From NCBI GenBank assembly GCA_022865845.1, contig JALHUC010000317.1:1-19621 (forward strand): 19,621 nt of DNA. Reading direction: 5' to 3'. Numbering within the stretch: position 1 is the first letter of the stretch; each line of letters opens with the position of its first letter. This DNA comes from a bacterium (GTDB taxonomy: Bacteria > BMS3Abin14). Below the pieces are notes generated by a model. It saw only the letters and a list, made by a program, of their open reading frames with translations, had not been told where the DNA came from and did not search any database. Made by a program: the position numbers and the translations under genes. Below are positions 3,610 through 19,361 of the stretch, piece after piece.

Positions 3610-3723
3610 CGCGTTTGGTTCAGCTCCATTCGCTCAAAGTTTGGAGCTTCCTCAAAACCCGGGTCGATTCAATCTGGTAAAGTATCTATCATTAGTATAA
3701 TCTGCGTCCTGAGCCTGGTTTTG

Positions 3724-3882
3724 GATGCAGGAAAGGGCTGCGTGAACGCCGCCGAGATCGGGCACGTGGTTGCAACCTGGGGCGAAGAGGCCGCGCGATT
3801 GGGCCTCACGCAAACCGAGATCGATCGCATGGCATCGGCTTCCGAACATGACGATTCGGGAGCGGTGCTTGCGGGACATTGA
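3724..3882 (+). pseudogene. HipA-like kinase C-terminal remnant
   Basis: The frame around 3742-3882 reads VNAAEIGHVVATWGEEAARL, continues GLTQTEIDRMASASEHDD, and stops at TGA 3880. This resembles the last 35-40 residues of HipA-family serine/threonine kinases (toxin of type II toxin-antitoxin pairs), which end in a W-x-x-x-A-x-x-x-G-[LI]-x-x-x-E-[IQ]-x-x-M-A-x-A-[FS]-E pattern. No kinase core or HipB-like gene is visible upstream; the frame is open to about 3667 but codes for nothing recognisable there. I therefore call it a relic rather than a gene, although a GTG at 3742 follows AAAGGG. A second short peptide-like stretch (WYPEQQALLAPIVDLLQNAL, 3888-3947) lies in another frame and may be more decayed sequence. 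Confidence 0.45.
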
Positions 3883-4058
3883 TCGCTTGGTATCCAGAAC
3901 AGCAGGCCCTTCTGGCACCGATCGTGGACCTGCTTCAGAATGCACTGCCTGCAATATAATTGATCATGGTATTGATACTTTTGACCACCTGAAAACCCGC
4001 GCCACTACTGGCTTTTCGCGGCCTATTTAAAATCGAATGGGAATAGAAGAATCAGAGG

Positions 4059-4090
4059 GGGAGAGCGGGAGAGTGGGAGAAGGGGAGAAA
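4059..4090. repeat. Four tandem purine octamers (GGGAGANN)
   Basis: Four adjacent 8-base units read GGGAGAGC, GGGAGAGT, GGGAGAAG and GGGAGAAA. The tract is purely purine apart from one C and one T, and lies about 55 bases before the dnaE start. Confidence 0.85.
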
Positions 4091-4113
4091 AACCTTTCCC
4101 ATGTTCCTTAACC

Positions 4114-4141
4114 GATCACTGATCACGGATCACCAATCACA
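4114..4141. repeat. Heptamer array, unit GATCACN (4 units)
   Basis: Four contiguous 7-base units read GATCACT, GATCACG, GATCACC and AATCACA. The array ends 5 bases before the dnaE ATG, where a ribosome binding site would normally sit. Confidence 0.85.
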
Positions 4142-4146
4142 CCTTT

Positions 4147-7100
4147 ATGAAACACGCCAATTTCGTTCATCTCCATGTCCATACATCCTACAGCCTCCTC
4201 GACGGGGCCTGCCGCGTTGCCGATCTGACCCGGTACGCTGCCGATCTCAAGTTTCCGGCCCTTGCTATTACCGACCATGGGGCAATGTTCGGCGCCATCG
4301 ATTTCTACAAAAGCGCCCGCGCAGCCGGAATAAAGCCGATTATCGGCCAGGAGTTCTATATCGCTCCCGAAAGCCGGCTTGATCGCAAACTTGATGAATA
4401 CGGAGAATCGGCCTATCACATCGTCCTTCTTGCGCGAAACTCGGAAGGTTATTCCAACCTGGTAAAGCTGTCCTCTATCTCTTATCTCGAGGGTTTCTAC
4501 CGGAAGCCGCGTATCGACAAGGAGGTCCTTTCCCGTCATTCCGATGGCCTGGTAGCCCTCTCCGCCTGCCTGAAGGGAGAGGTTGCCTACCTGGTCAGAC
4601 GGGGGAATTACGAAAGAGCCAGGGAAACCGTGTCCTGGTACAAAGACCTGTTCGGCGAGAATTATTTCCTGGAAGTTCAGCATAACGGGCTTGCCGATCA
4701 GGACAAGGCCAACGAGGGGATGCTCAGGCTGGCTAAAGACACAGGTGTCGGACTGGTTGCGACCAACGATATCCACTACCTGCGTAGGGAGGACACAAGG
4801 ATGCACGATGTCCTCCTTTGCATTCAGACCGGGAAAACGGTTCAAGACGAGAACCGGATGCGAATGGACACCGACGAGCTCTACGTCAAGTCAGCCGAAG
4901 AGATGGAGCTGTATTTCAAGGACTACCCCAACGCCCTGTCCAATACCCTTGCCATCGCTGAGAGATGCAACCTTGAGATCGCTATCGGTGAAACACACCT
5001 TCCCCGTTTTCCCATACCTGAAGGGATGACGGAGGGGTCTTTCCTTTACTCCAAGGTTCGTGGCGGATTCGACAAGCGAATGGAGCTCATTCTGGATGGG
5101 ACTCCGGAGGATCAAAGGGAGGAGGTGCTGGAGAAGTACCAGGCCAGACTGGGCACCGAACTGGAGGTGATCACCAATATGGGGTTCCCGGGCTACTTCC
5201 TTATTGTATGGGACTTCATACAATATGCGAGGGAGCAGGGCATCCCCGTTGGCCCAGGGAGAGGTTCAGCAGCTGGTTCCCTCGTGGCCTATTCCCTGAG
5301 AATCACCGATATTGACCCTATCAAGTATGGACTTCTCTTTGAACGTTTCCTCAACCCTGAAAGGATCAGTCTGCCGGATATCGATGTGGATTTCTGCATG
5401 CAGAGGCGCGACGAGGTCATCCGCTATGTGACGAATAAGTATGGCGAAGACAAAGTCGCCCAGATAATTACTTTCGGAACCATGGCGGCCAGGGGCGCCA
5501 TCCGGGATGTTGGCAGGGCTCTTGATATGAACTATGCCGAGGTGGACAGGATCGCCAAGTTGGTCCCGGAGATCCTGGGTATCAAGCTGTCTAAAGCCAT
5601 CGAGCAGGAACCTCAGCTCAAAGAGGCCATGAAAAACGACAAGAAGGTGGCCGATCTCCTTGAGTTGGCCCAGAAAATGGAAGGTCTCCACCGCCACGCC
5701 TCTACCCACGCTGCGGGAGTGGTGATCAGTGACCTTCCCCTTTCCAGCCACGTTCCACTCTACAGGAATATCAAGGATGACAGCGTACTAACCCAATACG
5801 CCATGAAGGAGCTGGAGAACATTGGGCTTGTCAAGTTTGATTTCCTGGGGCTCCGGACGCTGACCCTTCTGAATAACGCCGTACAGCTTGCCAACAGGAA
5901 GAGGTTGGCTCAGGGGCAGGAACCTGTCGAGATGGAAAGGCTGGACCTTCTGGACCAGAAAACCTATGAGCTCTTGTCCACCGGGGATACGGACGGAGTT
6001 TTCCAACTGGAAAGTTCCGGGATGAAGGATCTTCTGGTCAAGATGAAACCGGGGTGCTTCGAGGACCTCATCGCCCTTGTGGCCCTCTACCGTCCGGGAC
6101 CCCTCGGGTCAGGGATGGTGACCGATTTTATCAACCGGAAGCAGGGTCGGCAGGAGATCTCCTACGACACCAAGGAGTTGGAAAAGATCCTGTCCGAGAC
6201 CTATGGTGTTATCGTCTATCAGGAACAGGTTATGCAGGTGGCCAGCGAACTGGCCGGCTACAGCATGGGTGAGGCGGACAACCTCCGTCGTGCCATGGGC
6301 AAGAAGATGCCCGAGGAGATGGAAAAGGAAAGGGTTCGTTTCCTGGAAGGGTGCCAAAGAAACAATATTCCGGACAAGAAGGCGGCCGGTATTTTTGACA
6401 ACCTTGCTTTTTTTGCGGGTTACGGGTTCAACAAGTCCCACAGTGCGGCCTACGCACTTATCGCTTACCAGACAGCCTTTCTGAAGGCACATTTCCCAAT
6501 GGAGTTCATGGCCGCCCTTCTCACCAGTGAGATGGACAACTCGGACAAGGTGACCCAGCACATCGGCGTTTGCAAAGAGATGGGTGTCAAGCTGCTGCCG
6601 CCCGACATAACTCACTCGGAGATCCCGTTCACCGTTGAGGAGGGTGGGATCCGTTTCGGGCTCGGTGCTGTCAAGAACGTGGGAGTGTCGGCCCTGGAGG
6701 AGATCCTGAGTAAGCGCAGTGATGGCGGGACCTTCAAGTCTGTAAACGAATTTTGCAGCAGGGTGGATCTGAGAAAGGTAAACCGAAGGGTCATAGAGAG
6801 TTTGATCAAATCGGGGGCCTTCGATTGCTGCGGGGATCACAGAGCCCAGCTACTGGCTTCCCTGGACCAGGCCATGGAACGGGGACAGAAGGCTCAGAGG
6901 GATCGAGACAGCGGCCAGATAACCATGTTTGAGGGAGCCCTTGCATCCGACAGTGAGTATTCTATATCTCAGGTTGAACCGTGGTCGGAGCAGCAGCGGC
7001 TGGCTTTTGAGAAAGAGTGCCTGGGCTTTTATATCACCGGACATCCCCTTGAAAAATATCGCAAAGAGCTTGAGAGGTACGTTACCGTGGATCTGGGGCG

Positions 7101-7620
7101 CCTTGTGGAGATGTCTGAAGGACAAGAGGTCAAGGTGGCTGGAATGAAACAGAGCATGCGGGAAATAAGTACAAAGAGAGGGGACCGCATGGCTTTCCTG
7201 ACCCTGGAGGACCTGCACGGCAGCGCCGAGGTGATCGTTTTTTCGGATGCTTTTACCAAGGCAGGCCATATCCTGGCTTCTGAAGGTCCCTTCGTCGTTC
7301 AGGGGGTTATCGATTCTAACGGAGACAAACCAAAAATCAAGGCATCTGACGTGGAACTGTTGGAAGAATACCGGCAGAGGGTTACAAGGGAGATCCTTAT
7401 CAACCTGTCAACTATCGGGCTTTCAGGGGACGATCTCGAAAAACTGAAGAATGTCCTGTTGCAGCACAAGGGTGATTGCGCTGTCAGGTTAAAGCTTACG
7501 ATCCCCACCAAGGCAGAATCGGTTATTGCCCTGTCGGACGAATTCAAAGTGGGGTCTTCCGATGAAATGGTCAACGATGTGGAGAGGATCTTCGGCAGCG
7601 GGACGGTGACCTTTGTTTGA
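4147..7620 (+). CDS. dnaE: DNA polymerase III alpha subunit
   Basis: This 1157-residue protein is the replicative polymerase of the C family, of normal DnaE1 length. The N-terminal PHP domain (about 5-280) has H10-x-H12, D43-H44, E69, H91, C141, H179 and D208-x-H210, a complete-looking metal site. The polymerase core has GPGRGSAAGSLVAY, the catalytic acidic motif PDIDVDF at 410-416, HRHASTHAAGVV, and FNKSHSAAYALIAYQTAF. The YQEQVMQVASELAGYSMGEA region and the helix-hairpin-helix part follow. A C-terminal OB fold is seen around VKVAGMKQSMREISTKRGDR. The ATG at 4147 gives the standard MKHANFVHLHVHTSYSLLDG start but has no good ribosome binding site. accA follows 117 bases later, an order common in Desulfobacterota. 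AGG is a frequent arginine codon. Confidence 0.97.
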   Translation: MKHANFVHLHVHTSYSLLDGACRVADLTRYAADLKFPALAITDHGAMFGAIDFYKSARAAGIKPIIGQEFYIAPESRLDRKLDEYGESAYHIVLLARNSEGYSNLVKLSSISYLEGFYRKPRIDKEVLSRHSDGLVALSACLKGEVAYLVRRGNYERARETVSWYKDLFGENYFLEVQHNGLADQDKANEGMLRLAKDTGVGLVATNDIHYLRREDTRMHDVLLCIQTGKTVQDENRMRMDTDELYVKSAEEMELYFKDYPNALSNTLAIAERCNLEIAIGETHLPRFPIPEGMTEGSFLYSKVRGGFDKRMELILDGTPEDQREEVLEKYQARLGTELEVITNMGFPGYFLIVWDFIQYAREQGIPVGPGRGSAAGSLVAYSLRITDIDPIKYGLLFERFLNPERISLPDIDVDFCMQRRDEVIRYVTNKYGEDKVAQIITFGTMAARGAIRDVGRALDMNYAEVDRIAKLVPEILGIKLSKAIEQEPQLKEAMKNDKKVADLLELAQKMEGLHRHASTHAAGVVISDLPLSSHVPLYRNIKDDSVLTQYAMKELENIGLVKFDFLGLRTLTLLNNAVQLANRKRLAQGQEPVEMERLDLLDQKTYELLSTGDTDGVFQLESSGMKDLLVKMKPGCFEDLIALVALYRPGPLGSGMVTDFINRKQGRQEISYDTKELEKILSETYGVIVYQEQVMQVASELAGYSMGEADNLRRAMGKKMPEEMEKERVRFLEGCQRNNIPDKKAAGIFDNLAFFAGYGFNKSHSAAYALIAYQTAFLKAHFPMEFMAALLTSEMDNSDKVTQHIGVCKEMGVKLLPPDITHSEIPFTVEEGGIRFGLGAVKNVGVSALEEILSKRSDGGTFKSVNEFCSRVDLRKVNRRVIESLIKSGAFDCCGDHRAQLLASLDQAMERGQKAQRDRDSGQITMFEGALASDSEYSISQVEPWSEQQRLAFEKECLGFYITGHPLEKYRKELERYVTVDLGRLVEMSEGQEVKVAGMKQSMREISTKRGDRMAFLTLEDLHGSAEVIVFSDAFTKAGHILASEGPFVVQGVIDSNGDKPKIKASDVELLEEYRQRVTREILINLSTIGLSGDDLEKLKNVLLQHKGDCAVRLKLTIPTKAESVIALSDEFKVGSSDEMVNDVERIFGSGTVTFV

Positions 7621-7655
7621 CAGACAGGATATTTGCAGGAATACTGAGGGGTCAT

Positions 7656-7683
7656 GGAATGAAGAATGTAGAATGTAGAATAG
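7656..7683. repeat. Heptamer array, unit AGAATGT (4 units)
   Basis: Four contiguous 7-base units read GGAATGA, AGAATGT, AGAATGT and AGAATAG, in the dnaE-accA spacer. Confidence 0.85.
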
Positions 7684-7700
7684 GGGAAAATGAACCGCAT

Positions 7701-7728
7701 CCGAAACCCGAAACCTAAACTCAAAACG
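7701..7728. repeat. Degenerate heptamer array, unit CCGAAAC (4 units)
   Basis: Units read CCGAAAC, CCGAAAC, CTAAACT and CAAAACG. The array ends 9 bases before the chosen accA ATG. It would be translated only if accA began at the in-frame ATG 7690, which argues against that start. Confidence 0.7.
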
Positions 7729-7737
7729 GAATATATT

Positions 7738-8709
7738 ATGGTATACAACCTGCTGGAATTTGAAAAGCCCCTGGCCGAACTGGAACGGCGTATCGGCGAG
7801 CTGAAGCACATGGATCTGGACCAGCCCGGAGTGGACCTGTCTGACGATATCGCCAGGCTGGAAAAAAAGCTCAACAAAATGCGCCGTGATGTCTATTCAG
7901 GCCTTAGCCGGTGGCAGAAGACCCAGATCGCCAGGCATCCTCAAAGGCCGTACACCCTGGATTATCTGGAGTTCCTCATGGTGGATTTTGTGGAACTCCA
8001 CGGGGATAGAACATTCGCTGACGACAAAGCCATTGTGGGTGGAGTGGCGTGGTTCAACCGGAAACCGGTCATGGTGATGGGGCATCAAAAGGGACGCAAC
8101 ACCAAGGAAAAGGTGGAACGGAACTTCGGTATGCCCAATCCAGAGGGATATCGCAAGGCTCTCAGGCTGATGAAGCTGGCTGAAAGGTTCAGTATCCCTG
8201 TCATTACCCTCGTCGATACACCCGGCGCCTTCCCTGGGATCGGAGCCGAGGAGAGGGGACAGGCGGAGGCCATCGCGAGGAACCTTATAGAGATGGCGGA
8301 CCTCACAGTTCCCATTATAACTGTTGTGACGGGGGAAGGGGGCAGCGGCGGAGCCTTGGCCCTGGCAGTCTCCAACTGGGTCATGATGCTGGAAAACAGT
8401 ATTTATTCGGTCATCTCACCCGAGGGCTGCGCGGCTATTTTGTGGAAGAACCAGGCTTACGCCCAGGACGCTGCTGAAGCGATGAAACTGACGGCCCAGG
8501 ACAGTCTCAAGAACGGGATCATCGATGAGATCATCCCCGAACCACTTGGCGGTGCCCACATGGAGCCGGCGACTGCAGCCAAATCTATGGGAGCCGCCAT
8601 TCAGGTTCAACTTGACCGGTTGTCTGCCATGGGGCCCGAAGAGCTTGTCACGGACAGGTGGGCCAAATTCAGGAAAATAGGTGTCTTCAAGGATAAACCC
8701 GGTGACTGA
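7738..8709 (+). CDS. accA: Acetyl-CoA carboxylase carboxyltransferase alpha subunit
   Basis: The 323-residue product moves the carboxyl group from carboxybiotin to acetyl-CoA, making malonyl-CoA for fatty acid synthesis, together with AccD (not in this window). The N-terminal helix [19 protein letters not shown] is the family start. Crotonase-fold motifs follow: [71 protein letters not shown] and [13 protein letters not shown]. An in-frame ATG at 7690 would add 16 residues, but those come from repeat sequence, so 7738 is preferred; a weak ACGGA precedes it. The end overlaps the pheA start, which suggests coupled translation. Confidence 0.95.
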
Positions 8710-9532
8710 CCAGCTCAGGATCGCCTATCTGGGACCAGAGGCTACCTTCACCCATCAAGCTGCCCGCCAGACATTCGGACGCGGTGCCAGATACCTTGCT
8801 GCCGAGACAATAGGGGACGTTTTTAGCATGGTTGGGCAAGGGTACGCGGACATGGGGGTAGCACCTGTCGAAAACTCCAATGAGGGTGTGGTTACCTCGA
8901 CCCTTGATCTGCTCGTGGATTCCGATCAGCAGATCGCCGGGGAGATAATTCTTCCCATCAGGCTCATGCTCATGTCGAAGGAGCAAAGTCTCGATACCGT
9001 GAGGACAGTGTACTCCCATCCCCATGTTTGGGGACAATGCCGGCAATGGCTGGGAAGGAACCTGAGCGAAGCTAAACTGAAGGACGCCAGGAGCACCGCG
9101 GAAGCGGTGACCCTGAGTGCTGAGGTTGCCGGAACGGCCGCGGTAGGCGGGGAGTTGGCAGCGGAGCTTTATGAAGTCCCGATCCTGGTTGAAAATATCG
9201 GTGACTGGACGGAGAACCTTACCCGGTTCCTTATCTTTTCCAACCGAAAATCTGAACTTACCGGAGATGACAAGACTTCCATCGTTCTGTCCATAAAGGA
9301 CCGTGTCGGGGCTCTTTATGAGATCCTTAAACCTTTTGGCGACAACGATATTTCTCTCACCAAGATCGAATCGCGCCCCTCGAAGAGAAAAGCCTGGGAT
9401 TACCTCTTTTTCGTCGATCTGGAGGGCCATAGGGACGAACCGAAAGTGAAGGAGACCCTGGAGAGGGTAGGGGAGTATTGTGAGGATATGAGGGTACTGG
9501 GAAGCTATCCTAAAGGCAATGTGATCGAATAA
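8702..9532 (+). CDS. pheA: Prephenate dehydratase (no chorismate mutase domain)
   Basis: The product converts prephenate to phenylpyruvate for phenylalanine synthesis. From GTG 8702 it has 276 residues and starts [21 protein letters not shown]. The dehydratase domain (about 5-180) includes [19 protein letters not shown] and the catalytic T174-R-F motif. A C-terminal ACT domain (about 188-270) has GALYEIL and the ESRP motif (223-226) of phenylalanine feedback binding, so allosteric inhibition by Phe is likely. Unlike the fused P-protein of E. coli or Geobacter, no N-terminal chorismate mutase helices are present. An in-frame GTG at 8681 (AGGA upstream) is an alternative start adding 7 residues; 8702 is preferred for the family-like N terminus and an AAGGA 10 bases upstream. 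Either choice overlaps accA. Confidence 0.93.
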
Positions 9533-9550
9533 ATTAGATATCACATTGCC

Positions 9551-9578
9551 AGTGTCTAGGTTCTAGTGTCTGGTGTCT
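9551..9578. repeat. Heptamer array, unit AGTGTCT (4 units)
   Basis: Contiguous units read AGTGTCT, AGGTTCT, AGTGTCT and GGTGTCT, all in one 7-base phase. Confidence 0.85.
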
Positions 9579-9585
9579 GGCAAAT

Positions 9586-9620
9586 CAGAATGTAGAATGT
9601 GGAATGTAGAACATAGAATA
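9586..9620. repeat. Heptamer array, unit TAGAATG (5 units)
   Basis: Contiguous units read CAGAATG, TAGAATG, TGGAATG, TAGAACA and TAGAATA. The heptamer is a phase-shifted form of the one before accA (AGAATGT). Confidence 0.88.
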
Positions 9621-9654
9621 AAATCCTCAACCGTTGGCCAACTATTACTTTCCC

Positions 9655-9710
9655 TTGGATTTTGGATCTTGGATCACATTTAAAATCTGAAATTTGGAAT
9701 TTAAAATCAC
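9655..9710. repeat. Compound heptamer array, TTGGATC then AAATTTG type (8 units)
   Basis: Three units (TTGGATT, TTGGATC, TTGGATC) run without a phase break into five more (ACATTTA, AAATCTG, AAATTTG, GAATTTA, AAATCAC). The whole 56 bases keep a 7-base step up to the GGAG ribosome binding site of hisC. Confidence 0.8.
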
Positions 9711-9722
9711 ACGGAGTGTTCA

Positions 9723-10838
9723 ATGACCATAACCTACCGACCCGCTTACAGTTCAGTGGAGGACCTTGTCCCCTACAGCGCGGGAAAACCCATCGAGGAA
9801 GTAGCACGGGAGATGGGGCTTACCAGGATCGTGAAGCTGGCCTCAAACGAGAACCCCATGGGCATGTCGCCCCTGGCCGTCGAAGCGATGAATCAGGCTG
9901 CTGCCGGTGTAAACCGGTACCCTGACGGCGCTGGTTGGGACCTGAAGGGCAAACTTTCGGAAAGGTTGGAGGTACCTCGGGAGAACATCGTACTGGGGAA
10001 CGGGTCCAACGAGATCCTGGAACTCCTTGCACAACTGCTTCTCACAGAAGGGGACGAAACACTTTATGCCTGGCCTGCTTTCGTAGTCTATAGGTTGGCT
10101 ACTCTGGCTCACGGAGGCAGAGGGATCGAGGTGCCCCTGGACGGGAATCTCAAACACGATCTGGACGCCATGGCAGACGCCCTGACAGACCGGACCAGGA
10201 TCGTTTATGTAGCCAACCCAAACAACCCTACCGGGACCTGTGTCGGGCGGGATGAGTTGGAACGGTTCATGGACAGGGTTCCGGAAAATGTCCCGCTCGT
10301 GTTGGATGAAGCTTATTTTGAGTTTGCCAGGCATCTTGATGATTTTCCAGACGGGATGGAGTACTTCAGACAGGGCAGGCCCATTGTAGTGGTAAGGACC
10401 TTTTCCAAGGCCCACGGACTGGCAGGTCTTCGTGTAGGCTACGCTGTAATGCCTGAACCCTTGGCGAACCTTCTGAACCGTGTTCGCCAGCCGTTTAACG
10501 TCAACAGTATGGCTCAGGCTGCGGCTATGGCCGCTCTTGATGATAATGATTTTGTTCAAAGAGGACTCGACCACAACCGGAAGGAATTAAGACGTATCCA
10601 GGACGCTGTGGAAAGTATTGGTCTTACGGTTACCCCGTCATTTACCAACTTCATCCTCATTGATCTGGCGGGACGGTCCGGTCAGGATGTTTACGAGGGG
10701 CTGATGAAGAAGGGCGTTATCGTAAGATCCATGGTGCCCTACGGGATGCCGGGGACCATCCGGGTCACTGCGGGACTTTCGGAAGAGAACGATATGTTTC
10801 TGGAGGCGTTGGGGGAGATAATCGCTGAATTTCCGTGA
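9723..10838 (+). CDS. hisC: Histidinol-phosphate / aromatic aminotransferase
   Basis: This 371-residue PLP enzyme is a fold-type I class II aminotransferase. Motifs include SNENPMG (from residue 41), the NPNNPTGTC loop (from 165), LVLDEAYFEF with D195, and the PLP lysine K229 in TFSKAHGLAGLRVGYA. The sequence is HisC-like, but its position between prephenate dehydratase and DAHP synthase suggests that it also, or mainly, transaminates phenylpyruvate and hydroxyphenylpyruvate; this is inference. The ATG has GGAG 6 bases upstream. The 190-base spacer before it consists largely of heptamer repeats, so it may be transcribed from the upstream genes or from an unseen local promoter. Confidence 0.9.
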   Translation: MTITYRPAYSSVEDLVPYSAGKPIEEVAREMGLTRIVKLASNENPMGMSPLAVEAMNQAAAGVNRYPDGAGWDLKGKLSERLEVPRENIVLGNGSNEILELLAQLLLTEGDETLYAWPAFVVYRLATLAHGGRGIEVPLDGNLKHDLDAMADALTDRTRIVYVANPNNPTGTCVGRDELERFMDRVPENVPLVLDEAYFEFARHLDDFPDGMEYFRQGRPIVVVRTFSKAHGLAGLRVGYAVMPEPLANLLNRVRQPFNVNSMAQAAAMAALDDNDFVQRGLDHNRKELRRIQDAVESIGLTVTPSFTNFILIDLAGRSGQDVYEGLMKKGVIVRSMVPYGMPGTIRVTAGLSEENDMFLEALGEIIAEFP

Positions 10839-10864
10839 TTCGTAATTCGTAATTGGTAATTCAG
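10837..10864. repeat. Heptamer array, unit AATTCGT (4 units)
   Basis: Units read GATTCGT, AATTCGT, AATTGGT and AATTCAG. The first unit begins inside the hisC stop codon. Confidence 0.85.
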
Positions 10865-10885
10865 AGACAGGAGATTTTCCAAACC

Positions 10886-10906
10886 CGAGTCACGAGTCAC
10901 TAATCA
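10886..10906. repeat. Heptamer array, unit CGAGTCA (3 units)
   Basis: Units read CGAGTCA, CGAGTCA and CTAATCA, in the hisC-aroF spacer and just before the aroF ribosome binding site. Confidence 0.8.
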
Positions 10907-10929
10907 CGGAATTTATGAGGTAAAAAACC

Positions 10930-11943: not shown

Positions 11944-12806
11944 ACCGTTCAACCTCCTCACCCCCACTTTTCAAACGGGTTTACCTTTTAGGGACCGGTC
12001 TCATCGGTGGCTCCCTGGCACTTGACCTGAAGGACAGCGGACTGGTTGAAACTGTTGTCGGATCCGATTCGCTTCCGGAGAGATCCGAGTCCGCCCTGTC
12101 CATTGGCATTCTGGATGAGATCCAACCCATGGTTCCGGAAGTCGTTAGGCGCTGCGACCTGGTTATCCTTGCTGTGCCTGTACTCAATTTAAGAGAGATT
12201 CTCAGCACCGGATTTGAAAAGGACACCCTTGTCACCGATGCGGGAAGTGTGAAGGGTGATGCTGTCAGTGGATATCGCGAGGCAGTTGCCGCTGGCAGGG
12301 GTTATCGTTACGTTCCCGGACACCCCATAGCGGGAGATGAAAAATCAGGCCCTGAAGCCGCCAGAAGGGGGCTTTTCGTTGGGGCAAGGGTCATCCTTAC
12401 CCCTGTGGATGCCTCCCGGCAGGATGTGTCCGATGTCAGCGCCCTGTGGGAAGGTGTTGGCGGCAGGATCAAGATCATGGATCCGGATGAACACGATGAA
12501 GTATTCGCCTGGGTCAGTCACATGCCTCACATGGCAGCCTATGCCATAATTGACAGTGTGTTGGCGCGAGATCCGGACCTGGTGGACCTTTCCGGTGGAG
12601 GGCTGAGGGATTATACACGTATCGCTGCGAGCAACCCCCGCATGTGGGCTGACATTGCTGTGGCCAACCGGGAGAAGCTCCTCATCGCCGCCAGGGGACT
12701 GGGTGATTCGCTGAACAAGATCATTTCCGCTCTTGAGGAGGGTGACCACGATCGCCTGGAGAGCGCTTTTCAAAGGATCGCGTCTGTCAGGAGGTCCCTG
12801 AAATGA
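11940..12806 (+). CDS. tyrA: Prephenate (arogenate) dehydrogenase
   Basis: The 288-residue product oxidatively decarboxylates prephenate to 4-hydroxyphenylpyruvate in the tyrosine branch. A Rossmann motif G18-x-G20-x-x-G23 is seen in LLGTGLIGGSLALDL. The family signatures VTDAGSVKG, PGHPIAGDEKSG (H128) and SHMPHMAAYAI (H194, H197) follow. The length fits a dehydrogenase without ACT or chorismate mutase domains, so end-product control is not visible. The GTG start overlaps the aroF stop by 4 bases (GTGA) and has AGGGA just upstream; the stop overlaps the aroA start. NAD versus NADP preference cannot be judged from this. Confidence 0.93.
   Translation: MNRSTSSPPLFKRVYLLGTGLIGGSLALDLKDSGLVETVVGSDSLPERSESALSIGILDEIQPMVPEVVRRCDLVILAVPVLNLREILSTGFEKDTLVTDAGSVKGDAVSGYREAVAAGRGYRYVPGHPIAGDEKSGPEAARRGLFVGARVILTPVDASRQDVSDVSALWEGVGGRIKIMDPDEHDEVFAWVSHMPHMAAYAIIDSVLARDPDLVDLSGGGLRDYTRIAASNPRMWADIAVANREKLLIAARGLGDSLNKIISALEEGDHDRLESAFQRIASVRRSLK
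12790..12796 (+). promoter_or_regulatory. Strong ribosome binding site for aroA inside tyrA
   Basis: A full AGGAGGT lies inside the last codons of tyrA, 6 bases before the overlapping aroA ATG. It fixes the aroA start and implies strong re-initiation. Confidence 0.8.
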
Positions 12807-14104
12807 GCTGGATGATCAAGCCAGGAGGATCTCTCCATGGTGATATTACTGTTCCTGGGGACAAGTCCGTTACCCAAAGAGCCTATATATTTGCCGCCAT
12901 GGCCAAGGGGACTTCCCATATAATCGCTCCCCTTCGCGCAGAGGATACGGACAGCACCCTCAACGCTGTGAGGTCGCTGGGTCCGGTTATAGACGACAGG
13001 GTTCAGGAGGTGTCCATAACAGGGGATGGAACACAATCCTTCACTGAGCCTGGTGATGTAATAAACCTTGGAAACAGCGGTACTGGTGCCCGTCTCATGG
13101 CAGGCCTTCTCGCGGCCTGCCCCTTTCTTTCTGTTCTCACGGGTGACGAATCCCTGCGCCGTCGTCCCATGGCCCGGGTGACAGAACCACTTCGGCTCAT
13201 GGGCGCTGTTATCGATGGACGCGCCGACGGTACCCTTCTTCCTCTTGCTATCAGGGGTGGGTTTCTAAAGGGTGTTAACTACATTAGCCCGGTCGCAAGC
13301 GCTCAGGTCAAATCAAGCGTGCTTATCGCTGCGCTGGGTGCCCAGGGAAAAACCATATTTACTGAGCCGGCTCTGAGCAGGGACCACACGGAAAGAATGC
13401 TCACCGCCATGGGCGTTCATATTTCCGCTCAAGGAAAGTCCCTCGTTGTTGAAGGAGGGCAGGTCCCGAAAGCTGCCACCATAAAGGTCCCCGGTGATAT
13501 ATCTTCAGCGGCCTTCTTCTTTGTTGCCGCCACCGTTATGGACGGGTCTGATATCGTTGTGCGCAACGTGGGTATAAACCCGACGCGAACCGGGATACTG
13601 CAGCTGCTGGAAGCCATGGGTGCCCGAATCTCAGTCATGCACCATGATGGTGATGGAGAACCAATGGCTGACATACGGGTGCAGGGAAACGGTTCCCTCA
13701 GGGGGATGAGCATCCCCGAGGAATGGATCCCGGCGATCATTGATGAGCTTCCCCTGGCGGCTGTCCTGGCGGCCGCGGCCAACGGTGTGACGGAACTGCG
13801 TGGGGCCAGTGAACTGCGTGTCAAGGAATCGGACAGGATCTCGACCACTGTTCAGATGCTCCAACGGGCCGGAGTTAAGGTTGAAGAGCTCAGCGACGGT
13901 TTCAGGATCCACGGTCCGGCCGCCGTAACCGGTTATGCTCACGAGAGCCACGGTGACCACCGTATTGCCATGAGTTCCACCATCCTGTCTCTTATGGCAA
14001 GGGACAAGAGTGAGATCCGGGATACAGGCTGTGTGGCAACCTCCTTCCCCGATTTTGTTAAACTCATGAACGATCTTCTGCCCGGTTCAGTGACCGTAAT
14101 CTGA
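12803..14104 (+). CDS. aroA: 3-phosphoshikimate 1-carboxyvinyltransferase (EPSP synthase)
   Basis: The 433-residue product joins shikimate 3-phosphate and phosphoenolpyruvate to make EPSP. The N-terminal PGDKSVTQRA holds K21 and S22. LGNSGTGARLMAG (from residue 89) is the phosphoenolpyruvate-binding loop, with Gly93 where glyphosate-sensitive enzymes keep Gly. Further motifs are RRRPMARVTEPL, SAQVKSSVLIAAL, GDISSAAFFFVAA, D314 in IIDELPLAAVLAAAA, K341-E-S-D-R, and GDHRIAMSSTILS. The NSGTG-x-RLM loop looks more like Bacillus-type enzymes than the E. coli GNAGTAMRPL loop. It overlaps tyrA by 4 bases and is followed 5 bases later by cmk. Confidence 0.96.
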   Translation: MSWMIKPGGSLHGDITVPGDKSVTQRAYIFAAMAKGTSHIIAPLRAEDTDSTLNAVRSLGPVIDDRVQEVSITGDGTQSFTEPGDVINLGNSGTGARLMAGLLAACPFLSVLTGDESLRRRPMARVTEPLRLMGAVIDGRADGTLLPLAIRGGFLKGVNYISPVASAQVKSSVLIAALGAQGKTIFTEPALSRDHTERMLTAMGVHISAQGKSLVVEGGQVPKAATIKVPGDISSAAFFFVAATVMDGSDIVVRNVGINPTRTGILQLLEAMGARISVMHHDGDGEPMADIRVQGNGSLRGMSIPEEWIPAIIDELPLAAVLAAAANGVTELRGASELRVKESDRISTTVQMLQRAGVKVEELSDGFRIHGPAAVTGYAHESHGDHRIAMSSTILSLMARDKSEIRDTGCVATSFPDFVKLMNDLLPGSVTVI

Positions 14105-14109
14105 GTGTT

Positions 14110-14787
14110 ATGAAACAGATCGTGGCAATAGATGGTCCGTCGGGTTCCGGCAAGAGCACAGTGGCCGCCATGCTGGCAACGAAGCTTGGTTACATGCATC
14201 TGGACACAGGGGCTATGTACAGGGCGGTGGCTCTGGCAGCTGCTCTTGACAACCTCCCCTACGACGATGCAAGGCGTCTGGATGAGTTGTGTGAGCAGAT
14301 CCGGATCGAGATGCGTCGGAACGAAGGCGTCGTGTCGGTATACCTGAACGGGCAGGATGTCACCGAGGAGATCAGAACACCCGAGATGAGTCTCGGGTCT
14401 TCCGCTGTCTCGGCGGTCCCGGAGGTCCGTTCTCACATGGTGAGGCTGCAGCGTGAAATTGGGAGTTCGGGTGGAATTGTGGCTGAGGGTCGGGATATGG
14501 GCACTGTGGTGTTCCCTGACACTCCGGCAAAATTCTACCTGGACGCTTCACCTGAGGAGCGCGCAAGACGAAGATGGCTGCAGCTTAAAGAGCTGGGAAT
14601 TGAAGAGGCACCGGAAAAGGTCCGAAGGGAGATGGATGAAAGGGACCAAAATGACACATCAAGGGAACATTCGCCTCTTAAGAAAGCTGAAGACGCCATT
14701 ATTGTAGACACGACAGGAATGTCTATCGACCAGGTTATCGAAAAACTTGCAGACAAGGTGAAGGAGTTGGAGGAATCCGGTGCATGA
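14110..14787 (+). CDS. cmk: Cytidylate (CMP/dCMP) kinase
   Basis: The 225-residue product phosphorylates CMP and dCMP for nucleotide pools. The P-loop GPSGSGKS is at residues 9-16. LDTGAMYRAVALAAA, EGRDMGTVVFPDTPAKFYLDAS and EERARRRWLQL (lid) follow in the expected order. Length is usual. The aroA-cmk pairing is widespread in bacteria, often leading on to rpsA. The ATG follows the aroA stop after 5 bases, so translation is probably coupled; the end overlaps the ispH start by 8 bases. Confidence 0.95.
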   Translation: MKQIVAIDGPSGSGKSTVAAMLATKLGYMHLDTGAMYRAVALAAALDNLPYDDARRLDELCEQIRIEMRRNEGVVSVYLNGQDVTEEIRTPEMSLGSSAVSAVPEVRSHMVRLQREIGSSGGIVAEGRDMGTVVFPDTPAKFYLDASPEERARRRWLQLKELGIEEAPEKVRREMDERDQNDTSREHSPLKKAEDAIIVDTTGMSIDQVIEKLADKVKELEESGA

Positions 14788-15619
14788 AGTGAAGCTGGCT
14801 GTATCAGCGGGGTTCTGCTTCGGTGTTGAAAGAGCAGTCAAAATGGCGGTCCTGGCCCTCGATGAGTTCGGGGGGCCGGTATACACCCTGGGCCCCATTA
14901 TTCATAACCCTCAGGAGGTACTCCGTCTTCAGAACATGGGGATAAAGATGGCTCACACCCTTGATGAAATCCCTGGAGGTACGGTGGTAATCCGTTCCCA
15001 CGGTGCTCCAAAAGGAGTGATCGAGGAGGCCGAAAAGAGGGGTCTCAAGGTCGTTGACGCCACCTGCCCCCTTGTGCAGCGGCTTACGGAAAGAGTCATG
15101 GAACTCGCAGACGAGGGGTACCAGATTGTTGTAGTAGGGGAATCCGATCACCCGGAGGTCATGGCGGTTCTCAGTTATGCCCCAGAATCATGTTTGGTTG
15201 TCCGGGGCCCGGAATGTGTGGAATCTGGAAATTTGAATAAAAAAGTGGGTCTTGTAGCCCAGACGACACAATCCCTGGAAAACCTGCGGGCAGTGGCCTC
15301 CCTATGTATATGCCATTGCCGAGAGGTTAGGACTTACAACACGATCTGTCATGCGACACACAAGCGGGGCGCTGAGGCGCTGGAACTTGCCGGACAGGTC
15401 CAAGTCATGATCGTGGTCGGAGGGAAGAACAGCGCTAATACGGCACGCCTGGCGAAGGCTGTTATCCAGGGAGGCACAAAGACATACCATATCGAGAGCG
15501 CGGATGAGTTAAGCAGCCTTGAGATCCCTACGGGAGTGCCCATAGGGATCACAGCCGGTGCCTCAACACCCGGTTGGGTCATTGTGGAAGTTATGACGGC
15601 GTTAAAGGCCATGGATTAA
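14780..15619 (+). CDS. ispH: 4-hydroxy-3-methylbut-2-enyl diphosphate reductase (IspH/LytB)
   Basis: The 279-residue [4Fe-4S] enzyme makes IPP and DMAPP in the last step of the MEP pathway. Cluster cysteines are C13 (GFCFGVERAV), C96 (DATCPLVQ) and C190 (TICHATHKRG). Substrate residues H42 (IIHNPQEV), H74 (SHGAPKG), H124 and E126 (SDHPEV) match E. coli numbering closely. GGKNSANTARLA and ITAGASTPGWVIVEV are also present. The GTG start is supported by GGAGGA about 6 bases upstream, within the end of cmk, and the N terminus is family-like. Extra cysteines in LCICHC near residue 175 are unusual, but I attach no role to them. Some bacteria fuse IspH to S1; here rpsA is separate. Confidence 0.95.
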   Translation: MHEVKLAVSAGFCFGVERAVKMAVLALDEFGGPVYTLGPIIHNPQEVLRLQNMGIKMAHTLDEIPGGTVVIRSHGAPKGVIEEAEKRGLKVVDATCPLVQRLTERVMELADEGYQIVVVGESDHPEVMAVLSYAPESCLVVRGPECVESGNLNKKVGLVAQTTQSLENLRAVASLCICHCREVRTYNTICHATHKRGAEALELAGQVQVMIVVGGKNSANTARLAKAVIQGGTKTYHIESADELSSLEIPTGVPIGITAGASTPGWVIVEVMTALKAMD

Positions 15620-15624
15620 CCACT

Positions 15625-15652
15625 ATCTTAAATCTCATATCTCATATCTTAA
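15625..15652. repeat. Heptamer array, unit ATCTCAT (4 units)
   Basis: Units read ATCTTAA, ATCTCAT, ATCTCAT and ATCTTAA, symmetric in order, starting 5 bases after the ispH stop. Confidence 0.85.
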
Positions 15653-15762
15653 AAGGTTCTGAATTTTTTTAACTTCAGTTACATAGGATGCTTTTTTCCA
15701 TAGGCTATTTATCGATCATCTCCATTCTAGCAGGCCGAAGCTGGAGCTCTGGGAACAGATTT

Positions 15763-15790
15763 CAATCTCCAATCCTCAATTCAATATTCA
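15763..15790. repeat. Degenerate heptamer run, CAATCYN-like (4 units)
   Basis: Units read CAATCTC, CAATCCT, CAATTCA and ATATTCA. It is looser than the other arrays. Confidence 0.5.
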
Positions 15791-15862
15791 CCATTTCCCC
15801 CTGATTCGGTAACAATTGTCAGGAAACCCACTATTTTCAGGGCTTGAGAGCCTGGTAATGAA

Positions 15863-15891
15863 TTGACATGGGGTATCAAATAGAGGATAAT
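15863..15891 (+). promoter_or_regulatory. Sigma70-type promoter for rpsA
   Basis: A perfect -35 box TTGACA (15863-15868) is followed after exactly 17 bases by GATAAT (15886-15891), one mismatch from consensus. Transcription would start near 15,898 and give a leader of about 40 bases that includes the AGGAGG site at 15921-15926. This is the best promoter in the window and fits a highly expressed ribosomal protein gene. Confidence 0.8.
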
Positions 15892-15937
15892 CCGCAACCG
15901 TTCAGAATGAATAAAATTCGAGGAGGTCACACAGCGT

Positions 15938-18022
15938 ATGACGATGGAAGATATGGAAGAAACGGAAGAGAACAGTCTCAATAGCGATGGGACGCCTGTG
16001 GTGGTAGACGATGACACCATGACAGACAGCGGAGATGCCGGTGAGGAATTGAGTGAGGAACTGGATGACGATGACGATGACAGTGAGGATTTCGCCAAGA
16101 TGTACGAAGCGAGTATCCGAGACCTGAGAGAGAGGGAGGTTGTCACCGGTACGGTAGTCGGAATCTCAAAGGATGGTGTTCTGGTGGACGTGGGCTACAA
16201 GTCCGAAGGCATTATTCCGAGGGTGCAGTTCCAGGATGAAAATGGAGAACTCACCATAGAAGAAGGCGATACAGTTGAGGTTTTCCTTGAGAAAAAGGAA
16301 GACTCTGAAGGCTTGATCTATCTGTCCAAAGAAAAGGCAGACAAGATGAAGGTGTGGAACGACATCGGCCAGTCCTACGAGGACAATGAACCTATTCGGG
16401 GTAAGATCATTACCCGGATAAAGGGTGGTCTCACAGTGGACATCGGCGTGAGGGCCTTCCTGCCCGGTTCCCAGGTTGACATTAGACCTATCCGAAACCT
16501 TGATCGTCTCGTAGGTGAAGAATTCTTTTTCAAAATAATTAAATTCAACCCCAGGCGAGGAAATGTTGTACTCTCCCGACGAGTTCTGCTTGAGGAGGAG
16601 AGGGAAACCAAGAAGGAAGATACCCTCAAGGTACTCGAGGAAGGTTCAGTGATGGAAGGGATCGTTAAGAATATCACCGATTACGGCGCCTTCATCGATC
16701 TGGGCGGAATAGACGGCCTTTTGCATATCACAGATCTTTCCTGGGGAAGACTGCAGCACCCTTCGGAAATGTTGACAGTTGGTGACAGTATCCAGGTCAA
16801 GATCCTGAAGTTTGACAAAGAGAAGGAACGTGTCTCCCTTGGAATGAAGCAGTTGTCCGAAGACCCATGGGAAGGTGTACCTGACAGGTACCCCATCAAC
16901 GCGAGGGTTAACGGCAAGGTCATGAGCGTCACCGATTACGGCGCCTTCATAAAGCTTGAGGATGGTGTGGAAGGACTCGTTCATATCAGCGAAATGACCT
17001 GGAACCGCAAGATCAAGCACCCTTCCAAAGTTGTTGAAGTTGGGGATTCGGTGGAAGCAGAAGTTCTTAGCATCGACAAGGATAACAGGCGCATCTCCCT
17101 TGGTATGAAGCAGATCGAACCCAACCCCTGGGATATCGTTGCTGAGAACTATCCCATCGGCAGCATTATCGAGGGAAAGGTCAGGACCCTGACCGATTTC
17201 GGCGCATTTATCGGGTTGGAAGAAGGCATTGACGGCCTTATCCATGTAAGCGATATGTCATGGACCCAGAAGATCAACCATCCTTCCGAGGTCATTAAAA
17301 AGGGTGATTCTGTCAAGGCGGTCGTCCTGAGTGTAGACAAGGGCAGGGAGCGCCTGTCACTGGGTTTGAAACAGCTGACGATGAACCCATGGGACGAGCT
17401 TGCCGCCAAGTATCCGGTCGGATCAGTAGTTACCGGGAAGGTTGTCAATCACGCTGATTTCGGCACTTTCGTTGAACTGATGGAAGGTGTTGAGGGGCTC
17501 ATACACGTTTCGGAGATTGATGCACGTGACGGTCAAAGCTCTGAGGATGCATACCCCTCCGGTACTGAGGTGACTGTCAAGATTCTGAACATCGATTCCG
17601 AGGAACGGAAAGTCAGTCTCAGCATGAAGGCTACCAAGGAAGGCGGCGCCTCTGCTCCTCCTTACAAGAGCTACCTGAACAATGACAGCGGTGGCGGGAC
17701 CCTGGGAGATATTCTGGGAGCATCCCTGGCAGCGGCCAAGAGCAGCGGGGAATCCCAGGAGCAGGAAACTGAGCCAGCGGTAGAGATCGAAGCCGTCCCT
17801 GAAGAAGTTGATGAATCTCCGGAGGAGGAGGTTGAGGCTTCCCTGGCAGAAGTTGAAGAAGATCTTCAGTCTGAAACGGAAGAGGATGTTGAAGCTTCCC
17901 CGGCGGAAGTTGAGGAAGATCTGCAGTCTGAAACGGAAGAGGATGTTGAAGCTTCCGCCCCTGAGACTGAGGAAGAAGAAACCTCTGAGGAAACCGAACC
18001 AGAGGAAGAGAAAACCGACTAA
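15938..18022 (+). CDS. rpsA: 30S ribosomal protein S1 with acidic N- and C-terminal extensions
   Basis: This 694-residue protein (about 557 in E. coli) binds mRNA at the 30S subunit. Residues 1-50 are an acidic Glu/Asp-rich lead. Six S1 (OB-fold) domains start near residues 68, 153, 236, 320, 408 and 495. Domains 3-6 share the strong pattern G-x-V-x-x-[IL]-T-D-[YF]-G-A-F-I and GLLHI or GLIHV; domains 1 and 2 are divergent, as is usual for ribosome-binding S1 domains. From about 566 a low-complexity acidic tail follows, with 19-residue tandem repeats near its end. AGGAGG lies 11 bases before the ATG; a second in-frame ATG at 15944 is possible. It has its own promoter upstream and a terminator downstream. 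Confidence 0.96.
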   Translation: MTMEDMEETEENSLNSDGTPVVVDDDTMTDSGDAGEELSEELDDDDDDSEDFAKMYEASIRDLREREVVTGTVVGISKDGVLVDVGYKSEGIIPRVQFQDENGELTIEEGDTVEVFLEKKEDSEGLIYLSKEKADKMKVWNDIGQSYEDNEPIRGKIITRIKGGLTVDIGVRAFLPGSQVDIRPIRNLDRLVGEEFFFKIIKFNPRRGNVVLSRRVLLEEERETKKEDTLKVLEEGSVMEGIVKNITDYGAFIDLGGIDGLLHITDLSWGRLQHPSEMLTVGDSIQVKILKFDKEKERVSLGMKQLSEDPWEGVPDRYPINARVNGKVMSVTDYGAFIKLEDGVEGLVHISEMTWNRKIKHPSKVVEVGDSVEAEVLSIDKDNRRISLGMKQIEPNPWDIVAENYPIGSIIEGKVRTLTDFGAFIGLEEGIDGLIHVSDMSWTQKINHPSEVIKKGDSVKAVVLSVDKGRERLSLGLKQLTMNPWDELAAKYPVGSVVTGKVVNHADFGTFVELMEGVEGLIHVSEIDARDGQSSEDAYPSGTEVTVKILNIDSEERKVSLSMKATKEGGASAPPYKSYLNNDSGGGTLGDILGASLAAAKSSGESQEQETEPAVEIEAVPEEVDESPEEEVEASLAEVEEDLQSETEEDVEASPAEVEEDLQSETEEDVEASAPETEEEETSEETEPEEEKTD
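17831..17956 (+). repeat. 57-bp tandem repeat coding the acidic S1 tail
   Basis: Two adjacent 57-base units (17831-17887 and 17888-17944) encode VEAS-[LP]-AEVEEDLQSETEED, and a partial third begins with VEAS. The units differ mostly at silent positions, so this is a fairly recent in-frame duplication. Confidence 0.9.
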
Positions 18023-18201
18023 CCCGCATTTCTCACCAGGGTTCGTCGCGAGGCGGTGTAGACGGGTGTGGATACAAGGCGCGCGACCGAGGGCCCCGCA
18101 GGCGTAGTTGACACTACGTCGAGGAGCGCGACCGAGCGAAACGCAGTAGACATGCCCGTATCCGCCGCTGCAGTAGAAGGCTGGTGAGAAGTGCGGGCTA
18201 A
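18019..18201. mobile_element. 175-bp palindromic MITE-like element after rpsA
   Basis: Terminal inverted repeats of 17 bases (18023-18039 and 18181-18197) match at 16 positions. Further partial pairing extends inward (around 18053-18070 against 18148-18167, with G-U-type mismatches). The exact centre is a hairpin, CGTAGT-TGAC-ACTACG (18103-18118). The direct repeat GCGCGACCGAG occurs on each side of the centre (18081 and 18126). CTAA borders both ends like a target duplication, and the left copy contains the rpsA TAA stop. There is no transposase gene inside. It could be a non-autonomous transposon or a structured RNA in the rpsA 3' UTR. Confidence 0.7.
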
Positions 18202-18231
18202 TACCGGCAACGGTAATTTTAATTTGATCAT

Positions 18232-18270
18232 GGCCGTGTGTATTCTCGATGAGATGCCACGGCCTTTTTT
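18232..18270 (+). terminator. Rho-independent terminator of rpsA
   Basis: A 7-base stem GGCCGTG (18232-18238) pairs with CACGGCC (18258-18264) and is followed directly by six Ts. A short inner TCTC/GAGA stem can form in the loop. A smaller hairpin with a GCAA tetraloop (18202-18215) precedes it. Confidence 0.85.
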
Positions 18271-18312
18271 GTGATACATTAATAAGAGCAATTGAAAATG
18301 GGATCAGGTATT

Positions 18313-18347
18313 TTGAAATTTGAAATTTGAAATTTGAAATTTGGAAC
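18313..18347. repeat. Heptamer array, unit TTGAAAT (5 units)
   Basis: Four exact TTGAAAT units are followed by TTGGAAC. The array ends 7 bases before the sppA ATG and contains a spurious in-frame TTG at 18334. Confidence 0.92.
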
Positions 18348-18354
18348 TTACCCT

Positions 18355-19242
18355 ATGAAACGTGCACATAAAATATTTATAATCATTACTTTGGTTCTGC
18401 TCGTAGTGGCTTTTGCCATCGGACGCTCAGACAGGTATGGTTCCGATGTTTTTGATGGGGATACCATTGCCCTGCTGCGTGTTGAAGGTCCTATAATCGA
18501 TGTTAGATGGTATATGGACCAGGTCCGTGATTTTATGGAAGATGACGGGATCAAAGGTGTAGTGCTACGCATAGACAGCCCTGGAGGTGCAGTCGCGCCC
18601 ACCCAGGAACTTTACATGGAACTCCTTAAGTTACGAGAGATCAAACCGATTGTTACTTCAATGGGAACAGTCGCAGCTTCAGGCGGATATTATCTCAGCT
18701 GCGCCACCGACTGGATCGTTTCCAACCCGGGCACCATCACCGGCAGCATCGGTGTCATTATGGAGTTCAGCAATCTGGAGGGTTTGTTCGGGAAACTGGG
18801 CATCAGCAGCCGAACCATCAAAAGTGGAAAGTTCAAGGATACTGGCAATCCAATGCGTCAAATGACTGTGGAAGAGGAAAGACTGCTTCAGGCTATGATA
18901 ATGGATACCTACGAACAGTTCGTCGAAGCGGTGCTAAAGGGACGGCCAGTGGAAGAGGACCTGGTGCGCCCTTACCTTGATGGCAGGGTCTTTACCGGCC
19001 GGCAAGCGCATGAACTGGGTCTTGTGGACCAACTGGGTAACATATACGACGCCATCGAAAAGGTATCTGAAATGGCAGGGTTGACGGAAGTGCCTGACGA
19101 AATTTACGAACCAGAACGGGAAAGGCCGGGGATCTTTTCGATCCTGTTCGGTGAAACTGCCGCCAGAGCATTGGTCAGCCTGTCTGATTCTGTGAATGAT
19201 CAAAGCAGCGACAGGTGGCTGCAGCTGTGGAGAGCGTTTTAA
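18355..19242 (+). CDS. sppA: Signal peptide peptidase SppA (short form)
   Basis: The 295-residue membrane-bound serine protease degrades leftover signal peptides. The N terminus MKRAHKIFIIITLVLLVVAFAIG is a single signal anchor. The S49 peptidase domain has RIDSPGGAVAPTQELY, then TVAASGGYYLSCATDWIVSNPGT with nucleophile S109, then TGSIGVIMEFSNLEGLFGKLGI and IKSGKFKDTGNP, where K156 is the likely general base. GRVFTGRQAHELGLVDQLG is also typical. The length fits the half-size Bacillus-like form rather than the 67-kDa E. coli form. The ATG 18355 is chosen because the TTG seven codons upstream lies in repeat DNA; the ribosome binding site is weak (GGA). Confidence 0.93.
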   Translation: MKRAHKIFIIITLVLLVVAFAIGRSDRYGSDVFDGDTIALLRVEGPIIDVRWYMDQVRDFMEDDGIKGVVLRIDSPGGAVAPTQELYMELLKLREIKPIVTSMGTVAASGGYYLSCATDWIVSNPGTITGSIGVIMEFSNLEGLFGKLGISSRTIKSGKFKDTGNPMRQMTVEEERLLQAMIMDTYEQFVEAVLKGRPVEEDLVRPYLDGRVFTGRQAHELGLVDQLGNIYDAIEKVSEMAGLTEVPDEIYEPERERPGIFSILFGETAARALVSLSDSVNDQSSDRWLQLWRAF

Positions 19243-19248
19243 GGGCAG

Positions 19249-19283
19249 GTAATCGGTAATCGGTAATCGGTGATCTGTAAACA
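19249..19283. repeat. Heptamer array, unit GTAATCG (5 units)
   Basis: Three exact GTAATCG units are followed by GTGATCT and GTAAACA, starting 6 bases after the sppA stop. Confidence 0.9.
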
Positions 19284-19326
19284 ATAATTAATGAAGGAAT
19301 ACTTGGTTAAATCGCTTTATGTTTTT

Positions 19327-19361
19327 ACCGATGACTGATCACTGATAACTGATAACCGTTT
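19327..19361. repeat. Heptamer array, unit ACTGATA (5 units)
   Basis: Units read ACCGATG, ACTGATC, ACTGATA, ACTGATA and ACCGTTT, in the sppA-ihfB spacer. Confidence 0.88.

Follow-up and report, generated by a model that had tools for sequence, protein, structure and literature searches.

Why should the spacers of a bacterial contig carry short tandem arrays that keep a seven-base step while their sequence changes from one spacer to the next? The question is posed by a 19,621-nucleotide stretch of DNA (hereafter the window), which is the entire contig C168 (JALHUC010000317.1) of the 662-contig, 2.86-Mb genome G000. A first-pass annotation, made from the letters of the window, had described twelve such arrays and held that random slippage does not obviously predict them. 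The seven-base arrays in the spacers are real, and across the family they follow a grammar: arms of about 30 bp, built from recurring words, keep a fixed direction, often face an inverted partner carrying the same word, and turn over rapidly between relatives. Tentatively, we favour the view that they are extragenic inverted-pair elements, remodelled by slippage, whose words are read in trans by a putative factor.

Period, length, words and direction of the arrays

Within the window, Tandem Repeats Finder returned 12 period-7 rows at a score of at least 30, matching the twelve arrays of the annotation, and our mismatch-tolerant scan kept 11 of the 12 at its working score threshold. The CCGAAAC run at 7701 scored 8, and a run at 15,763 that had been offered as a possible thirteenth array scored 6 and also fell below the threshold. 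The window's 2,086 bases of spacer held 11 arrays of period 7, one of period 8 and none of periods 4–6 or 9–12; in 1000 Markov-1 shuffles of these spacers, period 7 averaged 0.031 arrays and never exceeded 1. The annotation had counted six spacers, but there are seven: upstream of dnaE, dnaE-accA, pheA-hisC, hisC-aroF, ispH-rpsA, rpsA-sppA and sppA-ihf (genes were called with our own script, not a standard caller, and "aroF" denotes the DAHP synthase gene). Two of these spacers, hisC-aroF and sppA-ihf, contain an inverted same-word pair. The features are given below, with no strand assigned (.) and with reference to the sister species G001.

4111–4140, strand., arm NRATCAC, about 4 units; ends 6 bp ahead of the dnaE start; retained in G001
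7657–7681, strand., arm GAATGTA, 3.6 units; dnaE-accA spacer; degenerate in G001
7701–7720, strand., weak CCGAAAC run; score 8, sub-threshold in the scan
9555–9580, strand., arm GTGTCTR; pheA-hisC spacer
9587–9618, strand., arm GAATGTA; pheA-hisC spacer
9655–9675, strand., arm TTGGATN; close to hisC, with a degenerate AAATYTG run (score 8) following at 9683–9702
10834–10861, strand., left arm GTRATTC of the inverted pair hisC-aroF; begins 5 bp inside the hisC end
10886–10907, strand., right arm CGAGTCAC..TAATCAC, inverted, of the pair hisC-aroF; ahead of the DAHP synthase gene
15625–15649, strand., arm ATCTCAN; 5 bp past the ispH stop; retained in G001 with extra units
18312–18349, strand., arm TTTGAAA, 5 units; directly ahead of sppA; G001 has different words
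19248–19278, strand., left arm GGTAATC, 4 units, of the inverted pair sppA-ihf; 3' of sppA
19279–19326, strand., loop of the sppA-ihf pair, 48 bp; no relation to the G001 loop in either orientation
19327–19356, strand., right arm ACTGATCACTGATAAC, inverted, of the pair sppA-ihf

The sister species is closer to G000 (aroF product 97% identical) than is the nearest named relative, the metagenome-assembled genome bin582 (CP070698.1; our G061, with the same coordinates in G002), whose aroF product is 92% identical. Kinship in the genome sets searched passes from the family directly to the domain, which leaves the lineage without nearer relatives in those sets. We sampled bin582 systematically, covering 821 kb of its 2.03 Mb (a 40% sample), of which 120 kb is spacer. 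Its spacers held 278 period-7 arrays, against a shuffle mean of 0.0 and only 17 in coding DNA, which is sixfold larger. Neither outcome that the annotation had named as refuting, a period spectrum lacking a seven-base peak or arrays equally common in shuffled spacers, was observed. The constant period that it had claimed proved dominant but not exclusive: period 8 accounted for 71 arrays, period 9 for 22, period 6 for 15 and period 13 for 18, with at most 3 each at periods 3–5 and 10–12, and the signals at 14, 16 and 21 are echoes of 7 and 8.

A period-7 array was present in 176 of the 501 scored spacers of bin582, about a third (co-directional 112/353, convergent 40/74, divergent 24/74), and density was 3.33 arrays per kb in convergent, 2.28 in co-directional and 1.74 in divergent spacers. 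Taken together, G001, G000 and six other sampled family genomes showed the same period-7 peak, some of them with a lower array density. G003, G004 and G010 gave none in small samples; larger samples yielded 7 arrays in G003 and 13 in G004. The densities for G000 are inflated because 12 of the first 20 extra contigs were picked for holding GGTAATC and 7 more for orthology. In bin582 the length peak of period-7 arrays lay at 29–32 bp and that of period-8 arrays at 34 bp (medians 30 and 33 bp). Period-9 arrays had about three units and period-6 arrays scattered, suggesting that either the number of units, four, or the total length, near 30 bp, may be the invariant.

A different heptamer in almost every spacer, as the annotation had described, holds within the window but not genome-wide, where words recur. 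In all, 427 arrays clustered into 92 word classes (45 of them singletons), compared with 208–221 classes for column-permuted words, and the largest class, ATCTCAN, had 52 members compared with at most 9 in the permuted sets. The lexicon of bin582 comprised 70 classes, 26 of them with at least three arrays. Most columns of a typical word are fixed and one or two are free. The words also have a direction: in the 24 classes with at least five members, 208 of the 229 arrays lying no more than 80 bp from a gene edge followed the majority direction of their class relative to the nearest gene edge (null expectation 142.4, standard deviation 4.5, maximum 159 in 2000 draws). This direction was identical at stop and start edges, and leave-one-out agreement was 97/108 for unpaired and 102/108 for paired arms. 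Arms also crowded near stop codons, with 145 of 416 lying within 10 bp, versus 88.6 under random placement.

Outgroup words found a match in the family lexicon 3 times in 35, where chance predicts 4.8, which led us to reject a universal lexicon and indicates that the lexicon is lineage-specific. Beyond the family, ATCTCAN alone turned up, in 10 of 374 genomes, with genomes picked for ATCTCAN excluded. Three tandem copies of TAACTGA were found in none of 61 genomes, the source genome included, and three copies of GAATGTA in none of 8.

Plain slippage would explain the arrays by a polymerase footprint that favours 7-bp steps (Mrazek 2007, as told in passages of PMC4679880 and PMC4692102) and by coding constraint that confines them to spacers. 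The dominance of period 7 and its confinement to spacers fit this explanation, as does a whole-unit indel, 35 versus 28 bp, between the sister species. The decay of unit similarity is ambiguous: arrays of at least 41 bp lose similarity with unit distance (0.878, 0.854, 0.842), whereas those of 28–33 bp do so without a steady fall (0.857, 0.831, 0.861), a weak point in that the scan maximises the first value. Slippage would yield a spread of copy numbers without positional order, and this is not what we found: the 30-bp length peak, the recurring lexicon, the fixed direction and the inverted same-word partners described below are all unpredicted by it. For these reasons the annotation's doubt about random slippage is borne out, and we consider plain slippage unlikely, though a serious contender.

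Inverted same-word pairs and how they might arise

The annotation contained neither the direction rule nor the inverted pairing. The same inward word stood at opposite edges of a spacer in 38 of 132 pairs, compared with 4.6% when arrays were taken from other loci in the set and with 6/132 for words in the opposite direction. The two edges of one gene shared a word in 3 of 52 cases, which equals the baseline, and gene bracketing by cassette ends was rejected on this ground. Among period-7 pairs no more than 300 bp apart, 59 of 203 were inverted with the same word and 13 direct; the corresponding period-8 counts were 8 of 32 and 1. (Loci L126 and L138 stand in two sets for the spacer-edge pairing, for these pair tallies, and for the palindromy and G-run counts given later; neither has a period-7 array, and one period-8 array from them is counted double in the 300-bp tally.) Within 150 bp, 36.7% of 349 arrays had an inverted partner, versus 4.6% in the flanks of other arrays.

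These inverted pairs first suggested a selected hairpin, either in RNA or bidirectional, serving as terminator or mRNA stabiliser with the arms as stems. The excess of inverted partners within 150 bp is consistent with this idea, and so is the high array density of convergent spacers in bin582; however, convergent spacers were not the densest in G001 and the other-family samples. Three results weakened it. Mismatches on the transcribed strand comprised 165 G.T and 216 A.C, so that G.T is unfavoured and A.C in slight excess. The arm-to-arm pairing score of 14.49 compared with 14.25 after unit permutation (p = 0.17, 107 elements), meaning that permuting units costs nothing and that register-specific pairing is absent or very small. 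Finally, no T-tract follows the 3' arm (T fraction 0.29 versus 0.27 in the control, coding strand, n = 84). In addition, many arms are single, start edges and divergent spacers have arms as well, and no Rfam family reached the gathering threshold in the window.

None of the 107 pairs had perfect mirror arms. Free columns agreed in register at 0.568, versus 0.526 expected (p = 3e-8, before correction for register choice), while a copy with equal divergence would give 0.697 in register versus 0.562 expected. Arms that are barely register-matched, with no mirrors in 107 pairs and with G.T unfavoured, argue against a selected RNA hairpin, to which we give little credence, although the small register excess counts against rejecting it. 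The same numbers bear on templating in cis, in which one arm would be copied into its inverted partner through strand switching (quasi-palindrome correction), with the repeats coming from slippage. The inverted same-word pairs and the slight register excess speak for such copying, as does a loop found inverted between same-word arms in G007 and G011 (described below); loop inversion is a known outcome of exchange between inverted repeats. Against it stand the lack of mirrors and the distance from the copy model, and it predicts neither the fixed direction of each word nor its recurrence in many spacers. We regard templating in cis as quite improbable.

Most simply, we infer that whatever specifies the two arms "knows" the word, and that neither arm is copied from the other. 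Because the arms of a spacer share a word without mirror copying, the shared mechanism or seven-base reading unit proposed by the annotation stays the leading candidate, and its interpretation is in this sense partly supported.

Among possible readers, oligomeric ribbon-helix-helix proteins bind contiguous sites of 7 bp (omega of pSM19035) or 8 bp, and the arrays could be their operators. MetJ is a ribbon-helix-helix protein with 8-bp sites. The arms consist of four contiguous 7- or 8-bp units with fixed and free columns, and the NRATCAC arm resembles WATCACW. According to the portion of PMC9499535 that treats it, omega stimulates ParA fully only when four or more 7-bp repeats are contiguous. 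RHH_1 proteins, however, number 0–3 per family genome, far fewer than the words, with none found in G000; the arms stand at stop as well as start edges, and the words turn over fast. A search for Omega_Repress matched none of the 12 family genomes, but it matched no control genome either and hence carries no weight. We regard such operators as very doubtful.

Word turnover and the favoured reading

At the corresponding place in its sppA-ihf spacer, G001 also carries an inverted pair, whose arms are of GAATGCA type instead of GGTAATC. The loops of the two species have no similarity (score 5 in each orientation, shuffle mean 5.9), and the right flank of 72 bp is 90% identical; the pair is missing in G005 and G010. 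We compared 39 orthologous spacers of G000 and G001 (flank identity 93.6%), 10 of which had an array in either genome. Scored by hand, these 10 had kept their words in 4 cases (two degenerate in G001), changed one arm in 2, changed all words in 3, and gained or lost an array in 1. Compared with bin582, whose flanks are about 77% identical, arrays at the same edge often had different words. The hisC-aroF spacer was only 9–19 bp long and array-free in 5 of 11 family genomes. In the pheA-hisC spacer (loci L158 and L160), a 20-bp loop between GTTCCAG arms was inverted between G007 and G011, which belong to one genus (alignment score 13 inverted versus 6 direct; 0/20000 shuffles).

An ordinary MITE-like (miniature inverted-repeat transposable element) family exists alongside the word arrays. 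Its dispersed repeat of about 170 bp (L161:10150–10320) is present in G001, whereas G000 lacks it at the orthologous position on contig C347; at least 19 other G000 contigs carry it (40 of 198 candidates scored).

In the reading that we tentatively favour, the arrays would be the arms of one class of extragenic element. An arm is about 30 bp long and made of four tandem 7-bp, sometimes 8-bp, words with one or two free columns. Arms point inward from spacer edges, singly or as an inverted pair flanking an unrelated loop, and their words are drawn from a per-genome lexicon of dozens. A sequence-specific factor would read or write each word in trans, a proposal prompted by the two arms of a spacer having a common word but differing in their free columns. 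Whole arms or pairs would enter or be exchanged at spacer edges, and slippage would afterwards add and remove units; the effect on the host may be neutral. Architecture and turnover are observed, unlike the reader and the mobility, which we infer. An alternative that we think improbable goes further and supposes a word-guided system that edits intergenic DNA: a factor with many interchangeable 6–7 base specificities, guided by protein or nucleic acid, would write or exchange four-unit arms at both spacer ends, and spacers would be repeatedly relabelled with the genes unchanged.

Several results weigh against the trans-read elements. No strong inverted partner lies within 150 bp of 63% of the 349 arrays, and the free columns do show the small uncorrected register excess. 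One kept array differs between G000 and G001 by one whole unit (the 35 and 28 bp above), a gain or loss that slippage predicts. The loops of same-word elements look unrelated by eye, which implies that the elements are not copies of one element and leaves them without the conserved interior of a MITE; of 368 array-bearing spacers, 94 had some masked homolog, and the strongest of these homologs were orthologs or other dispersed repeats. No target-site duplication was seen in a by-eye look at sppA-ihf, and no enzyme or reader for the words was found. Y1_Tnp proteins (RAYT-type) occur in 8 of 12 family genomes and were absent from G000, G008, G009 and G011, several genomes being incomplete.

Gene context, wider distribution and known systems

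From 4147 onward, the genes of the window are, in order, dnaE, accA, pheA, hisC, aroF, tyrA, aroA, cmk, ispH, rpsA, sppA and the start of an IHF/HU gene; tyrA matches prephenate dehydrogenase models at scores below their cut-offs, and the 59-residue IHF/HU piece likewise stays under its cut-off. Similarity to G001 begins only at 4032, within the final codons of the gene that precedes dnaE, which resemble the end of guaA. Positions 1–4031 carry ATP synthase B, alpha/beta and gamma genes at 57–65% GC, versus 54% afterward, and this first 4 kb is likely an assembly chimera or an acquired segment. An octamer array, AGAGGGGG, lies at 4054–4088 between the putative chimera point and dnaE. The 3' end of rpsA contains a 57-bp tandem repeat (17820–17976) that encodes an acidic tail. 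Past rpsA, a GC-rich stretch (18030–18270) is 95% identical to G001 and, by eye, has a terminal hairpin and T-run, with no Rfam match.

Generality beyond the family is mixed. Near pairs were inverted with the same word in 3 of 4 cases at Omnitrophota aroF-neighbour loci (L002–L060) and in 2 of 3 in G162; G288 and G300 had none in 2 near pairs, both direct. One 50-kb stretch of E. coli had no spacer array at any period from 4 to 16.

Heptamer repeats in bacterial spacers have so far been attributed to slippage or interpreted as regulatory sites of a single word. What we describe is a grammar of arm length, direction, pairing and lexicon, together with word swaps between sister species at a constant place. 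A trans-acting reader or writer, should there be one, would amount to a hitherto undescribed way to shape intergenic DNA, and the long-standing puzzle of why 7-bp repeats predominate among bacteria is opened to testing in a series of close strains. The literature that we searched yielded no description of the direction, the lexicon or the word replacement.

How do the arrays compare with known systems? Prokaryotic heptanucleotide simple sequence repeats (Mrazek 2007, through passages of PMC4679880 and PMC4692102) likewise have 7-bp tandem units enriched in spacers, but they differ, as described there, from the present arrays, whose words form a lexicon and keep one direction, whose arms have about four units and inverted partners of the same word, and in which one word can replace another. 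The TAACTGA repeats of marine Beggiatoaceae, a rotation of GATAACT, the last unit of the window, are also intergenic heptamers at the edges of genes, with most of them oriented the same way toward start codons. By the relevant sections of PMC4679880, however, they are one word in 2–6 copies, mostly doublets, at start edges, with a single inverted case and with related heptamers rarely repeated. The GGGAATC and GGGGAYT arrays of Xanthomonas and Nostoc, in the passages of PMC4692102 that cover them, are mostly of four units in Xanthomonas, include some convergent inverted pairs and vary between species; they differ in being G-run words explained by G-quadruplexes. Only 41 of 524 arrays here have at least three G or C runs, and the length peak persists without those, so G-quadruplex words were rejected.

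REP, BIME and REPIN elements (parts of PMC3116915, PMC3733652 and PMC2817692) resemble the arrays in being extragenic, paired in inverted orientation and present in hundreds of copies. REPs are palindromic and of few types, whereas the arms here are mostly non-palindromic, use dozens of words and do not appear to be tracked by RAYT-type genes. Arm self-complementarity averaged 5.1 versus 4.8 after shuffling, reaching at least 10 in 19 of 238 arms versus 3 shuffled, and a REP origin with palindromic arms was rejected on this account. The parS site of pSM19035, bound by omega/ParB, shares contiguous 7-bp units of which four are needed (the section in PMC9499535), but it is a single, plasmid-borne word, and here no matching protein family is expanded. 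The paired 7/8-mer sites and H4 elements of Geobacter metallireducens, as far as the relevant part of PMC2700814 describes them, have four tandem octamers or five tandem heptamers with free columns, opposite-strand pairs at variable distance, as here, and four-unit heptamer elements. They form four classes of paired sites and one heptamer family, read as regulator sites, in contrast to the 70 word classes in a 40% sample and the turnover at orthologous sites that we observed. The arrays are thus known in kind, from heptamer repeats and, in the part of the Geobacter account cited, from paired tandem sites, and they are new in their grammar and dynamics.

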